The position numbers were made by a program, and so were the translations under genes. Of a DNA stretch of 64,000 bases, positions 31,886 through 39,421 are shown one piece after another. The stretch spans positions 1-64,000 of the forward strand of contig JAETPY010000003.1 of the NCBI GenBank assembly GCA_021770925.1, written 5' to 3'. How positions within the stretch are numbered: the first letter of the stretch is position 1; every line of letters begins with the position of its first letter. Source of the stretch: Erysipelotrichaceae bacterium. GTDB lineage: Bacteria > Bacillota_I > Bacilli_A > Erysipelotrichales > Coprobacillaceae. A model generated the notes under the pieces. It saw nothing but the letters and a program-made list of their open reading frames with translations. It made no database searches and was not told the origin of the DNA.

Positions 31886-31963
31886 AAGAAACAGTTTTAA
31901 GAATTTTGTTATTTTAGTAACTGATCATATAATAAAATTACTGTTATAAATATAATATTGTTA

Positions 31964-31992
31964 TTGACACATAACATTTATAAAGTTATAAT
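31964..31992 (+). promoter_or_regulatory. Sigma-A promoter in copy A
   Basis: TTGACA, 17-nt spacer, TATAAT. Confidence 0.8.
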
Positions 31993-32139
31993 TTAAGTAT
32001 AAAAGAAATAAAAAATTTTATATAATAATAAAATTTAAAGAGTTTAATAAATTAGAAATATAAATTAATAACAGAAATTAAAAGCAATTCAACAATCAAT
32101 TAGATGGGTTAGGAGGGAAGACTTTTATATCGCGATTGT

Positions 32140-32166
32140 AAAACAATAATTTGTATTGTTTTTATT
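32140..32166 (+). terminator. Conserved leader hairpin (terminator/attenuator-like), copy A
   Basis: AAAACAAT-aatttgt-ATTGTTTT followed by T; conserved in copy B with compensatory change. Confidence 0.55.
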
Positions 32167-32455: not shown

Positions 32456-32686
32456 ATGAAAAAAATCGTAATTATAGTTTGTTTGTATATAGGGATTTTA
32501 TTACCTGTATATCCAATTTCAGCAGAGCAAATTACTGATATTGATAAATTTGATGCTAATGCAATAAGTAATAATACGTATGAAACTATTAAATTATTAG
32601 AAGAGGAAATGTCAAAAAATAATACAGATGTTATCTCTGAATTAGAAAAAATGGAACTTGATTATAAAGAAGATTTAAAAAAATAA
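32456..32686 (+). CDS. Secreted protein, N-terminal part (split by A7 / -1 frame)
   Basis: Signal peptide MKKIVIIVCLYIGILLPVYPISAEQ; GGAGG RBS; ends TTA AAA AAA TAA; the -1 frame continues as INSSDEEIKINRILSEITKMKIEYGLYK. Confidence 0.7.
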   Translation: MKKIVIIVCLYIGILLPVYPISAEQITDIDKFDANAISNNTYETIKLLEEEMSKNNTDVISELEKMELDYKEDLKK

Positions 32687-33228
32687 ACTCAAGTGATGAA
32701 GAAATAAAAATTAATAGGATATTAAGTGAAATTACTAAAATGAAAATAGAATATGGACTATATAAAGAAAATGAGTCTATGCAAAGAAGTATATGGTATG
32801 AAGCTTCAGTTGCAGCTTGTATTACTTATTTTAATATGAATGGATATAAGTTATCTACTGAACTTTTAGTACAAGCTAAAGTAAATAAAAAATTAGACTC
32901 ATATTATAATCCTTCAGCACGTGCTTTAACTTCTATTACACAATCATCAAAATATTGGGAAATTAGAGATGGCAAATCTACTAGTGGATCTGCAGCTTTT
33001 CCGAATTTTGGAAGTGTTTCTGAAAGAGATTGCTATTATGCTATTCACAAGTTTAGTTATACTAAACCTAGTTCATCAAGTAAAAAAGTTATTATTACTG
33101 ATAGATATGATTATGATAATACAAAAAATTATAGTGGTATTGAAGGCGTTGCTGTTAATGCAATGTATGAGGCACAACAAGCAGGATATTTAACACCATT
33201 TAAATTAAAAATTACATTGGGAAGTTAA
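32684..33228 (+). CDS. Secreted protein, C-terminal part (reachable by -1 shift); ORF-track version starts at 32740
   Basis: Continuous -1 frame to 33228; C-term VIITDRYDYDNTKNYSGIEGVAVNAMYEAQQAGYLTPFKLKITLGS. Confidence 0.65.
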
Positions 33229-33257
33229 TAAAATATAATTTTAGGAGAAATTTAAAT

Positions 33258-33719
33258 GTGAAAAAAATTAAATGGATAATTTTATTTGTGGCTGGCGTAA
33301 GTATTTTAGGAGTGGGGTTCTTTTTTACAAACTTATATGATTTTGTATTAAAAAATCATTCTATACAAGAATTGATCAATGAATCTTTTGCAACATCATT
33401 AGATGAAAGAGCATCTGTTATTTATGAAGTAGATACCATAAAAGGTTTTGATCGGGATGGTGAAAGATATTTAATATTGGATTATAGTAGTAGTGATATT
33501 AGAGATATTGAAGAAAATTTTGTTAAAGAAAGTGATTCTTCATTTGAAAATGAAGTAAGTAAAATTTTGAAAGAGATTGATATTGATAATAAATATTTAC
33601 CCTCATTTACAGATGATTACTATTCAAAAGAAATATATTATTCAAATAAAGACGATAAACTTTATTTAATGTATTTTCCAGAAAAGAAACAATTATATGC
33701 TTTAGCTTATTATATATAA
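33258..33719 (+). CDS. Small membrane-anchored protein of unknown function
   Basis: Single N-terminal TM then acidic soluble region; AGGAGAAA RBS; directly downstream of the secreted gene. Confidence 0.55.
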   Translation: MKKIKWIILFVAGVSILGVGFFFTNLYDFVLKNHSIQELINESFATSLDERASVIYEVDTIKGFDRDGERYLILDYSSSDIRDIEENFVKESDSSFENEVSKILKEIDIDNKYLPSFTDDYYSKEIYYSNKDDKLYLMYFPEKKQLYALAYYI

Positions 33720-34167: not shown

Positions 34168-34209
34168 TACAAAAAATAAAAAAAGAGGGTACATCTTCAT
34201 GTACACCTC
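34168..34209 (-). terminator. Terminator of the radical SAM/RiPP operon
   Basis: Minus strand GAGGtGTACAT-GAAG-ATGTACCCTC followed by TTTTTTTATTTTTT. Confidence 0.75.
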
Positions 34210-34274
34210 GATAGTCATCAAATACTTAACTTAATGACATTGGGGGTTGCCCCTTTTTTTCGTTTTCTACTCAA

Positions 34275-34382
34275 CTAAAAATTAATAAACATTACAGTTT
34301 GAGAAGTCCAAGGACACCAGCAAGATCCCTTAGCGATAGCTTCTTGTTTTTTGTTTTCAACAATAACTTTAACCTCTTTCAT
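34275..34382 (-). CDS. Candidate RiPP precursor peptide (35 aa) MKEVKVIVENKKQEAIAKGSCWCPWTSQTVMFINF
   Basis: ATG with GAAAGGAGAAATATC RBS 35 nt after the rSAM stop on the same strand; charged leader-like N-term, then G-S-C-W-C-P-W core. Absent from the ORF track because it is <60 aa. Confidence 0.75.
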   Translation of the reverse strand: MKEVKVIVENKKQEAIAKGSCWCPWTSQTVMFINF

Positions 34383-34417
34383 GATATTTCTCCTTTCTTT
34401 TTTATTAACAAATCAAA

Positions 34418-35881
34418 TCAAACATCAGCTGATTTGATAATGTTTACAAGTAATTCCGGATTCTTTTCCAATAACTCGTGATAAATTATTAAGCAGTCTT
34501 TTACAAAATCTTTTACTCTAGTACAATCATTTTTCTTAGCGATTAAATTAAATCCATTTCCATCATAACAATTTGAAAAACATAATGGACATAATTTTGA
34601 AGCCCAGCAATGTGTACAATCATCTTTAGACTGTTCTATATAATCATAGTAATAATGTTTCATTAGTTCATCTTTGTTAAAACCAGTTTCAATATTACCA
34701 ATTGATGGCGAATATCCAACTTTTTCACAAACTTTAAATTCACCATCAGTTGTGATATAAATTCTTTTTTGTCCTGGTATACAGCAGCCATTCATAGGAA
34801 TTATACAATCTGGCTCTTGGCTAATTCTACGGTTATTGATTTTTATAATTAATCTTCTAATAGCTTGAACTGCATAATCAAATGGATCAGTAGTTTCTAA
34901 AGATTTTCTCAAAAAGAAATCTTTTATTGGTTCTGATAACAATTTGTTAGAGTAGATGGTGTTATCTTCGATTTCGTATGTTCCTGCTTTTACCTTTGTG
35001 TTTTCATAGTTCACTTCTTTTGGCAGCCATTCTAAATTTGTAAAGAAATCATAAACCGCTTGTAATCTTTCATCTGTAAATGGCGGACAAATCACCGTAT
35101 AGATTGATAAACATCTTTTAGTTCTTTCTCCAAATGCATCTACTAAATTGTGTAAACCTTCTATTGTCTTGTCAAATGTGCCTTCATTGTTGGCTGAAAC
35201 TCTAAAATTATCATGGATGATCTTAGGACCATCAATACTGCAAGTAATAGTACAATCTTCTAAATTAGCGAAAAATTCTGCTCTTTCTCTAGTCATCAAA
35301 GATAAGTTGGTTGTCAAAGCATATTTAATCTTTAAATCTTTAGGTTTGTGCATATTTACATAATTTACAGTTTCTTCTATTAAATCAAATCGAACTAAAG
35401 GTTCACCACCATAAAATCCTATAACTAATAATCCTTTAGCTAAAGGTATTATATAATTTAAAGCTTTTTTTATAGTTTCTACATCCATATTTTTGGCAGA
35501 AAAATTTCTAAAATAATCACTTTGTTCATTGTAAATACAATATTTACATCTAAAATTACAGTTTTCCGTTAATTCAAATACAACTTGAATAATCATTTCA
35601 GTTGAATGCTCAATAAGTTCTTTGTATCCATCATAAAATTGGAGTTCTTTTTCATTAGATAATATTTTCGAGTTTTCAACTATTGTTTTAACTTCTTCTA
35701 TTTCTTCATCTAAATATTTACCATGAACTTCTACACCATTTAATATATCGTTTAAAATATTATACTGTATTGGTTCACATCTAAACACTTTTTCAGTTTT
35801 AGTATCATAAAAATATTTAGAATTAGATGTAGAAAAAGTAATACCCAAATTAGATAAATTCATTTTATCACTCACTTTCAT
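34418..35881 (-). CDS. Radical SAM/SPASM peptide maturase
   Basis: CNFRCKYC (CxxxCxxC); GFYGGEPL; SPASM cysteines CCIPGQKRIYITTDGEFKVC and CTHCWASKLCPLCFSNC. Confidence 0.92.
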   Translation of the reverse strand: MKVSDKMNLSNLGITFSTSNSKYFYDTKTEKVFRCEPIQYNILNDILNGVEVHGKYLDEEIEEVKTIVENSKILSNEKELQFYDGYKELIEHSTEMIIQVVFELTENCNFRCKYCIYNEQSDYFRNFSAKNMDVETIKKALNYIIPLAKGLLVIGFYGGEPLVRFDLIEETVNYVNMHKPKDLKIKYALTTNLSLMTRERAEFFANLEDCTITCSIDGPKIIHDNFRVSANNEGTFDKTIEGLHNLVDAFGERTKRCLSIYTVICPPFTDERLQAVYDFFTNLEWLPKEVNYENTKVKAGTYEIEDNTIYSNKLLSEPIKDFFLRKSLETTDPFDYAVQAIRRLIIKINNRRISQEPDCIIPMNGCCIPGQKRIYITTDGEFKVCEKVGYSPSIGNIETGFNKDELMKHYYYDYIEQSKDDCTHCWASKLCPLCFSNCYDGNGFNLIAKKNDCTRVKDFVKDCLIIYHELLEKNPELLVNIIKSADV

Positions 35882-35931
35882 TTAAATGAGATATCTCTAC
35901 ATTTAGTATAAAACTTTTTTGATAATACAAT

Positions 35932-35953
35932 ATCTAAAAATCATATTTTAGAT
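35932..35953. promoter_or_regulatory. Candidate operator palindrome upstream of the radical SAM gene
   Basis: ATCTAAAA-atcata-TTTTAGAT perfect 8-bp arms. Confidence 0.45.
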
Positions 35954-35999
35954 AAATTTAAATATAGATATAATTAATTCTTTGTCAAATAAACAGAAT

Positions 36000-36345: not shown

Positions 36346-36716
36346 ATAATCTTTTTCATTTCATAAAGTATCCTGTGTATCACCAGTTATTTTTACTAAC
36401 ATCCATTATGCACTAATCAATTGAACAACTATATAATTTATCTATTTATAAATAAGAAATTTATATTAAAAGCTTTTATAATAAAACCATGCAAATTATG
36501 ATTTTACAATCATGATATAAAAACCTTTCCTCCTAACCTATCTAATTAATTGTTAAACAGCTTTTAATTCCTGTTATTAATTTATATTTCTAATTTATTA
36601 AACTCTTTAAATTTTATTATTATATAATATTTTTAATTTCTTTTATACTTAAATTATAAATTTATAAATGCTATGTGTCAATAACCATATTATATTTATA
36701 ACAGTAATTTTATTAT
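36345..36716 (-). repeat. Promoter-leader element, copy B (inverse of copy A)
   Basis: See copy A; minus-strand TTGACA (plus 36676-36681), 17-nt spacer, TATAAT (plus 36653-36658), AGGAGG (plus 36529-36534), hairpin (plus 36483-36505). Confidence 0.85.
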
Positions 36717-36869
36717 GCTTTCAATGAGTTAATAAAATAAATTATAATTATGATATACATGGCTATTCCACTCTTTCATATTAAGTATACTGGTTCTTGA
36801 AATGTTTCTATCGCTTTATAGGTATGGTAAAAGGAAAAGATAAATAATACTAGTTCAAAAGGTCTAGAT

Positions 36870-37815: not shown

Positions 37816-38277
37816 TTATGATAAATTTCCGTTTTTATCACAAGTAAGAGTAACTGTTTTGGTTACTGTTGTAACTAAACTACCATCATAATAGTATTTT
37901 GCAGTAGCTTTAGCAGTAGCTTTATTTCCTGATTTAGAAGCACTTTTACTTGTAATCTTCCAGTTAGAAGTATAACTTGTAGCAGCTACACTAGCAGCTG
38001 TACATGTAGATGTTGAACCGTTATAAGTAAAAGTACCTGTAACACTTACTTCCCATACTGTTACATTGGAACTATCAACATATTTAGTTCTTTTAGTCGC
38101 AGTCTTTGTACCACTGGCTCTTGTCATAGTGTTTTCTAAGATTGTAATTTCATAGTATGAACCATCTTCTAAATATTCATAATATACGTTTTCGCTGGTA
38201 TTAGATTCTAATCCACAAATTTCAATAGGACTAAAGATTAATAACATTAATAATAAACTAGTTAAAATTTTTTTCAT
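37816..38277 (-). CDS. Secreted Ser/Thr-rich protein of a PadR-associated cluster
   Basis: Signal peptide; RASGTKTATKRTKYVDSSNVTVWEVSVTGTFTYNGSTSTCTAAS; GGGGAGAA RBS. Confidence 0.65.
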   Translation of the reverse strand: MKKILTSLLLMLLIFSPIEICGLESNTSENVYYEYLEDGSYYEITILENTMTRASGTKTATKRTKYVDSSNVTVWEVSVTGTFTYNGSTSTCTAASVAATSYTSNWKITSKSASKSGNKATAKATAKYYYDGSLVTTVTKTVTLTCDKNGNLS

Positions 38278-38314
38278 TTTTATTCTCCCCACACATTTTA
38301 TTTTTTAATAATTT

Positions 38315-38695
38315 TTATTCTTCGATAATTTCTGTTTCTTCATGCAAATATAACTCATTTTTTGCTGTTTCATAAAGTTGATTTAGTCTATACATTTTAA
38401 ACATACTGATTACAACAATAAAAATAATCAAAATCGATACTACCCACTTTATATATTGTTTTCTTTTTAATATTTTTAAAATTGTATCTGTATCGATTTC
38501 TTCAATATATGAAGCTGCTACTTCATTAGGCCTTCCAAATTCTTTTACAATATTATCATAATCACACTTATTTTCTAAACTTGAAGATTCTAAGATTCTT
38601 TGTTCCATCATTTTCAAAAAATCTTTTTTATCTTTTGAATTGATTGGAATTATTCTCTTAATTTCATTTATGTATCTTTTTATATCACTATTCAT
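38315..38695 (-). CDS. Small membrane protein, HAAS/DUF1700-like, partner of PadR
   Basis: MNSDIKRYINEIKRIIPINSKDKKDFLKMMEQRILE...EFGRPNEVAASYIEEI then TM. Confidence 0.55.
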   Translation of the reverse strand: MNSDIKRYINEIKRIIPINSKDKKDFLKMMEQRILESSSLENKCDYDNIVKEFGRPNEVAASYIEEIDTDTILKILKRKQYIKWVVSILIIFIVVISMFKMYRLNQLYETAKNELYLHEETEIIEE

Positions 38696-39029
38696 CTACA
38701 CTTTCCCTTTCACCATACTCCAAAATATCAAAAACACCTTGGATGTTTTTTCTAAATTCTTGTTTGACAGTTATTAAATAGTCCTTACCTGATGCTTCTA
38801 ATTTATAATAAACTCTAATTCTTTTTCCTGCTATAATATCATAACTGCTTATATATCCCTTTTTTAACAATGTATGAACAACAGGATATAAAGTTCCTTC
38901 TTTTATATTTAAAGCACCATGTGAAATTTCTCTAATCATTTTAACAATTTCGTATCCATAACAGTCTTTTGCGTTAAGAATGCTTAAAACAAGCATATCA
39001 AAATTAAAAAAAGTATTTGCTTTTGCCAT
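38688..39029 (-). CDS. PadR family transcriptional regulator
   Basis: DMLVLSILNAKDCYGYEIVKMIRE...EGTLYPVVHTLLKKGYI. Confidence 0.9.
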   Translation of the reverse strand: MAKANTFFNFDMLVLSILNAKDCYGYEIVKMIREISHGALNIKEGTLYPVVHTLLKKGYISSYDIIAGKRIRVYYKLEASGKDYLITVKQEFRKNIQGVFDILEYGERESVDE

Positions 39030-39421
39030 TTTCATCACCTATTCAAAATTATCATAAAATTAACAGTAATATAAATCATATTAAATTATATACATATTAA
39101 TATTATTATACACTTCACTCAATTACAATGCTTTTGTTATAATAGTATTATTGACATAAAGTAATGTAATGGTATAATAAATGTATATTTCTAATTGAAG
39201 AACTTTGGAAAAATGATGAAATCTATATAGCAAAAAAATATGCTGGTATTGTGAATCTATTGATAATTGCTTAGTTAATTAAAAATATAAGTTTAGTTGG
39301 ATTGCTAAGTTATTTAAATATAAACAGATATTAAAATAATGGAATTAATGTTTCATAATCTAAATTGATTAGCAGATAATATTTTGTTATATAAACTAAG
39401 TAAAAGTGGAGGAATTTGTTA

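Follow-up and report, generated by a model that had tools for sequence, protein, structure and literature searches.

Does the reading frame for 35 residues that directly follows a radical SAM/SPASM maturase gene encode a peptide on which that maturase acts, and what would the enzyme make of it? This question is raised by a locus in a 64,000-nucleotide stretch of DNA of an Erysipelotrichaceae bacterium (the whole stretch that was analyzed, hereafter the window). We conclude that the two genes are a real pair of precursor and maturase that is not yet catalogued and is a variant of the RumC-like sactipeptides; its product chemistry is a prediction. The features involved are:

34275..34382, minus strand: 35-aa precursor peptide, with a predicted leader (residues 1-19/20) and a core (G)SCWCPWTSQTVMFINF
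34389..34396, minus strand: Shine-Dalgarno sequence AAAGGAGA, 6 nt 5' of the precursor ATG
34418..35881, minus strand: RumMC-like radical SAM/SPASM maturase of 487 aa, with an RRE-like N-terminal domain (residues 1-95) and CxxxCxxC at 108-115
35961..35988, minus strand: sigma-70-like promoter TTGACA-16-TATATT, ~80 nt 5' of the maturase start
34176..34209, minus strand: hairpin resembling a rho-independent terminator (10 bp stem with one bulge), with a T-run behind it

The peptide encoded at 34275-34382 (minus strand) is MKEVKVIVENKKQEAIAKGSCWCPWTSQTVMFINF. Its frame lies 35 nt beyond the stop of the maturase gene, on the same strand and with no terminator between the two, and its start is preceded on the upstream side by AAAGAAAGGAGA-AATATC-ATG. 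An earlier sequence-only reading had proposed this unlisted ORF with its strong ribosome binding site, and the proposal was borne out in other species, where an ORF with the same core follows the maturase gene immediately. The hairpin and T-run that it placed behind the ORF held in part: for the hairpin adjoining the stop codon (GGGGGTTGCCCCT) the T-run is on the plus strand, and a minus-strand terminator lies slightly beyond it, at 34209-34176 (dG -13.5 kcal/mol, z -4.8). The promoter fits the consensus at 11 of 12 positions; sites of this kind are no more frequent in the region than expected by chance. When the precursor locus is compared across relatives, the upstream flank aligns well and the conservation of the DNA ends a few bases past the stop codon. 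The synonymous and non-synonymous changes are too few for a strong codon test alone. Judged by sequence comparison, the ORF is a real gene, the stronger evidence being its position and a core that is conserved across three genera.

The maturase was found (E <= 1e-60) in 6 of the 316 genomes of the order, and the short peptide is present in the same six, next to the maturase on its downstream side wherever the contigs allow; the peptide was searched for in 196 relatives, in a class sample of 395 genomes and in a set of 12 genomes, not in all 316. In the ~190 relatives that lack the maturase the peptide searches yielded weak matches only (E 0.003 and above), none of them adjoining such a maturase. 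A search of the 196 genomes with the single sequence returned a match in G063 (E 0.009), 76 nt downstream of the only such maturase of that genome. The ORFs directly downstream of the maturase encode MKEVKVIVESKKQQTIAEGSCSCPFTSQTVMFFTF in T. cocleata, MEEVKVIVENKKQETVALGSCWCPWYTQTVMFINY in G006, MKLVNPLNKVVIEKAGNEFYSAACSCPFMSQTVMFNF in G063 and, in L018, a 42-aa peptide with ...ICNCPFASQSAMFGGGWYLVNKG; the maturase and peptide sequences of L018 are the same as those of G067. The peptides of the window, T. cocleata and G067 had no match in NCBIfam. In VE202-01 (G007) a peptide identical to that of the window is encoded on a separate contig (the next one), right at its beginning, and the maturase at the contig end (L003, 5873-7337) reads as two overlapping frames, owing to a true frameshift or to an error of assembly. 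The same genome holds a second maturase copy (L042, 1-163, on contig C145), 39% identical and located beside mannose-family PTS genes; of its precursor, a ribosome binding site and GTG AAA are visible before the contig ends, and the precursor was not found elsewhere in the VE202-01 genome. Within Lachnospiraceae, the peptide profile yielded one match in 348 genomes, which was discarded as chance-level (E 9e-4; a short frame inside the coding region of a larger gene).

In the maturase tree the window enzyme groups with that of G063 (96/93). A single origin of the short-peptide maturases is rejected when L042 is left out (p 0.04) and not rejected when it is included (p 0.22). Outside this group (Lachnospiraceae, Peptoniphilaceae, Oscillospiraceae) the maturases are mostly followed, in the same downstream position, by longer precursors of the RumC, CA_C0660 or Apre_1838 type (62-73 aa, four or more Cys). 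The sequence-only reading had named as its refutation homologous maturases that lack a co-located small ORF with a GSCWCPW-like core; all close maturases (genus, order) with downstream sequence have a C-x-C-P small ORF, and the distant ones mostly have RumC-type precursors. The pairing of a RiPP precursor with a SPASM radical SAM maturase is well supported by this comparative genomics.

The best NCBIfam model for the maturase is that of RumMC (NF035951), with 460 bits over the full length, which is below the curated cut-off of 720 bits; a RumC-type relative (L004) reaches 900 bits. The scores for the other models were: CcpM 239, PapB 117, SCIFF 112, YhhB 74 and XyeB 53 bits, the models of cyclophane maturases (53-74 bits) remaining far from their cut-offs of 445-450. 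The cysteine motifs CX3CX2C and, in the SPASM domain, CX13GX4CX36CX2CX5CX2CX18C match exactly the spacing published for RumMC (PMC8188230). The maturase can be assigned to a RumMC-like lineage. The structure model (pLDDT 83.6) contains a beta3-alpha domain within the N-terminal residues 13-71, and its best match in the PDB, over ~490 columns, is CteB (5wgg), the SCIFF maturase of Clostridium thermocellum. An N-terminal RRE is predicted from this domain together with the full-length match to the RRE-bearing CteB. CteB is the closest solved structure and aligns with the whole chain, including the RRE, but it is only 20% identical to the window maturase and its substrate is a six-Cys SCIFF peptide.

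The short peptides share the core C-x-C-P-[FW]-x-[ST]-Q-[ST]-[VA]-M-F, in which C21, C23, P24, Q28, M31 and F32 are invariant. The likeness to the system of Ruminococcus gnavus in which the sactisynthases RumMC1 and RumMC2 build the antibiotic ruminococcin C (RumC) (PMC6779426, PMC8188230) lies in the order RRE-radical SAM-SPASM with identical Cys spacing, in a C-x-C at 21/23 (22/24 in RumC) after a leader of ~19 aa and in a small or aliphatic residue seven positions beyond the second Cys (Ala31 in RumC1). The window peptide is shorter (35 aa against 63 in RumC), has two Cys in place of the four, lacks the second hairpin and has a distinct core with conserved P, SQ and MF; the two-Cys count holds for all members, which thus lack the four-Cys, two-hairpin layout of RumC. 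Moreover, the window has one peptide and one maturase where RumC has five and two, and its cassette lacks adjacent transporters and proteases. A second likeness is to the CA_C0660 putative sactipeptides (NF035954) and the Apre_1838/CLOSPO_01332 peptides (TIGR04067), which have the MKxVNPxxK-type leader of G063 followed by the first C-x-C, and the maturases of TIGR04067-type loci are 34-35% identical to that of the window; those precursors, however, have ~60-70 aa and further Cys, whereas the window peptide matches no NCBIfam model. The RumC precursor model (NF035950) is likewise unmatched by the peptides of the window, T. cocleata, G067 and G063, and that of G063 matches NF035954 alone. The G063 leader is of the RumC type (MKLVNPLNK; NF035954 E 4e-4, below the family cut-off; pairwise E 6e-5), which suggests that the short and RumC-type precursors are homologous. 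A profile-profile comparison of the two was not significant (E 0.19), so that the case for homology of the precursors comes from the leader of G063 and from synteny.

We consider it fairly probable, with the chemistry drawn by analogy, that the locus is a minimal two-gene, one-hairpin cassette for a sactipeptide-type RiPP. The RRE-bearing, RumMC-like maturase would bind the 35-aa peptide by its leader (roughly residues 1-19) and abstract C-alpha hydrogens from the peptide, and two nested thioether bridges would run from C23 and C21 onto downstream residues to form one hairpin; the product would correspond to the N-terminal hairpin of RumC alone. In that hairpin the second Cys is bridged to the residue at +7 (Ala31/Glu31) and the first to that at +13 (Asn35), and the RumC leader is removed after Lys19 (PMC6779426). 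In the window peptide (Cys 21/23) this register predicts V30 (C23 +7) and N34 (C21 +13) as acceptors and has K18 just before the core, making two nested thioethers in a single hairpin the best prediction. All five sequences have V or A at +7, the +13 residue varies (N/T/N/F/G) and K18 is not conserved; the outer acceptor (+13) would be the least certain part of the bridge prediction. A RumC fragment of residues 1-40, with the first hairpin only, is an extremely poor substrate of RumMC2 (PMC6779426), from which it follows that the window enzyme would need to be adapted to a one-hairpin peptide. Export and leader removal would have to be performed by proteins encoded elsewhere, or the product would stay in the cell.

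The short-peptide cassette occurs in four different neighbourhoods (window and T. cocleata; G006; G063; G067/L018), which have only the pair in common. No RiPP exporter, leader protease or immunity gene was recognized beside it in any of these, in agreement with the early observation of no adjacent transporter or protease; beside several of the distant RumC-type loci there is an ABC transporter or an M16 peptidase. The only C39 transporter of the genome was dismissed as the exporter of the cassette, since members of the genus without the cassette have it too and G067 lacks it. Mobile carriage was dismissed as well: the peptide had no match on plasmids, phages or viral contigs, and the related maturases that plasmids and viral contigs carry are only 25-34% identical.

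Some further elements surround the cassette. Genes for a PadR regulator, a DUF6120 protein and a secreted-looking protein of 158 aa (37816-39038, minus strand) are kept beside the T. cocleata cassette and are absent from the neighbourhoods of G006 and G063. An inverted repeat of 261 nt (31902-32162 / 36483-36743, 88% complementary) flanks the cassette and three small ORFs; the genome has just two full copies and T. cocleata has one, upstream of the maturase, and the repeat is possibly a duplication or inversion scar. The three ORFs (76, 162 and 153 aa) lie side by side at 32456-33719 on the plus strand and have no Pfam match; that of 76 aa, the first, opens with a signal-peptide-like stretch and may form one broken gene with that of 162 aa.

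Conservation within the peptide is concentrated in its core. Of the 10 non-Cys positions among the first 12 core residues, on average 6.1 are kept in the short family versus 1.3 in RumC-type precursors, and of the first nine leader residues 2.7 versus 4.6, at maturase identities of ~37% in both cases and for a small sample (seven pairs from five sequences, which are not independent). In bacteriocin precursors, leaders are usually conserved and cores variable. The reverse pattern in the short family is in keeping with a product whose partner is fixed, and such strong conservation of the core suggests that the product has a conserved molecular partner and is not a diversifying bacteriocin.

Which linkage the cassette would produce can be weighed from the family of the enzyme and the variation in the core. 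The sequence-only reading had left both Cys thioethers and aromatic crosslinks as candidates, and only the former fared well: the RumMC-like lineage favours Cys thioether (sactipeptide) chemistry. Aromatic C-C crosslinks of the cyclophane/triceptide kind at W22, W25 or F32-I-N34 would agree formally with an aromatic-x-N motif in the window peptide and in G006, and with a position 25 that is always aromatic, but they are disfavoured because neither W22 nor F-x-N is conserved: relatives have S or N in place of W22, and F32-x-N34 gives way to F-x-T, F-x-F or F-x-G. With both Cys invariant and the low scores for XyeB (53 bits) and YhhB (74 bits), this chemistry was rejected as most improbable. That the same cassette yields a ranthipeptide, with a C-beta or C-gamma thioether, instead of a sactipeptide, is unlikely to a lesser degree. 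SCIFF peptides, the substrates of CteB, are now regarded as ranthipeptides and form gamma-thioethers. Since CteB, the closest solved structure, acts on SCIFF peptides, the fold match does not settle between C-alpha and C-beta/gamma linkage, and the PapB and SCIFF models do match the maturase, albeit weakly; the RumMC model, however, gives approximately fourfold more bits, and the core lacks the regular Cys-x3-Asp/Glu/Thr spacing that is typical of PapB/SCIFF substrates.

The role of the product is a separate matter, and here the peptide could possibly, if doubtfully, be the precursor of a small cofactor or of a signal, either intracellular or secreted, comparable to PQQ or mycofactocin, rather than of an antibiotic, a thioether still being possible. 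The core is far more conserved than the leader or the maturase, the four contexts have no recognizable exporter, leader protease or immunity gene beside the cassette, and the one C39 transporter is unlinked to it; on the other hand, no adjacent peptidase or cofactor-dependent enzyme was recognized, among the genomes sampled the cassette occurs patchily and in a few species only, and the lineage of the maturase otherwise makes bacteriocin-type peptides. It is very unlikely that the locus is the remnant of a decaying RumC-type operon of which the precursor lost its second hairpin and the transporter was lost: the two-frame maturase of VE202-01 and the lack of a transporter beside the cassette would be in line with decay, but the maturase and the core are kept across three genera at maturase identities of 35-40%, the maturases of the other species have no frameshift and the ribosome binding site is kept.

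The sactipeptide-type cassette, which by analogy probably makes a small sulfur-bridged peptide, represents an uncatalogued precursor family in gut Erysipelotrichales that escapes both the usual ORF cut-offs and NCBIfam. The core strings were found in no paper of the open-access literature that was searched. The peptide would provide a RumMC-like enzyme with a natural substrate of one hairpin, unlike the isolated N-terminal hairpin of RumC, which is published as a very poor one, and would hence be a compact system to study the choice of bridge positions. A more speculative proposal, which we put forward as rather unlikely, is that the stand-alone cassette yields a two-bridge mini-sactipeptide of ~17 residues, with the core as its most constrained part, that serves the Erysipelotrichales as a signal, cofactor or chaperone-like factor and not as a bacteriocin. 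The conservation of core over leader and the lack of an adjacent exporter raise the question whether some sactipeptide-type modifications may serve roles other than antibiosis.
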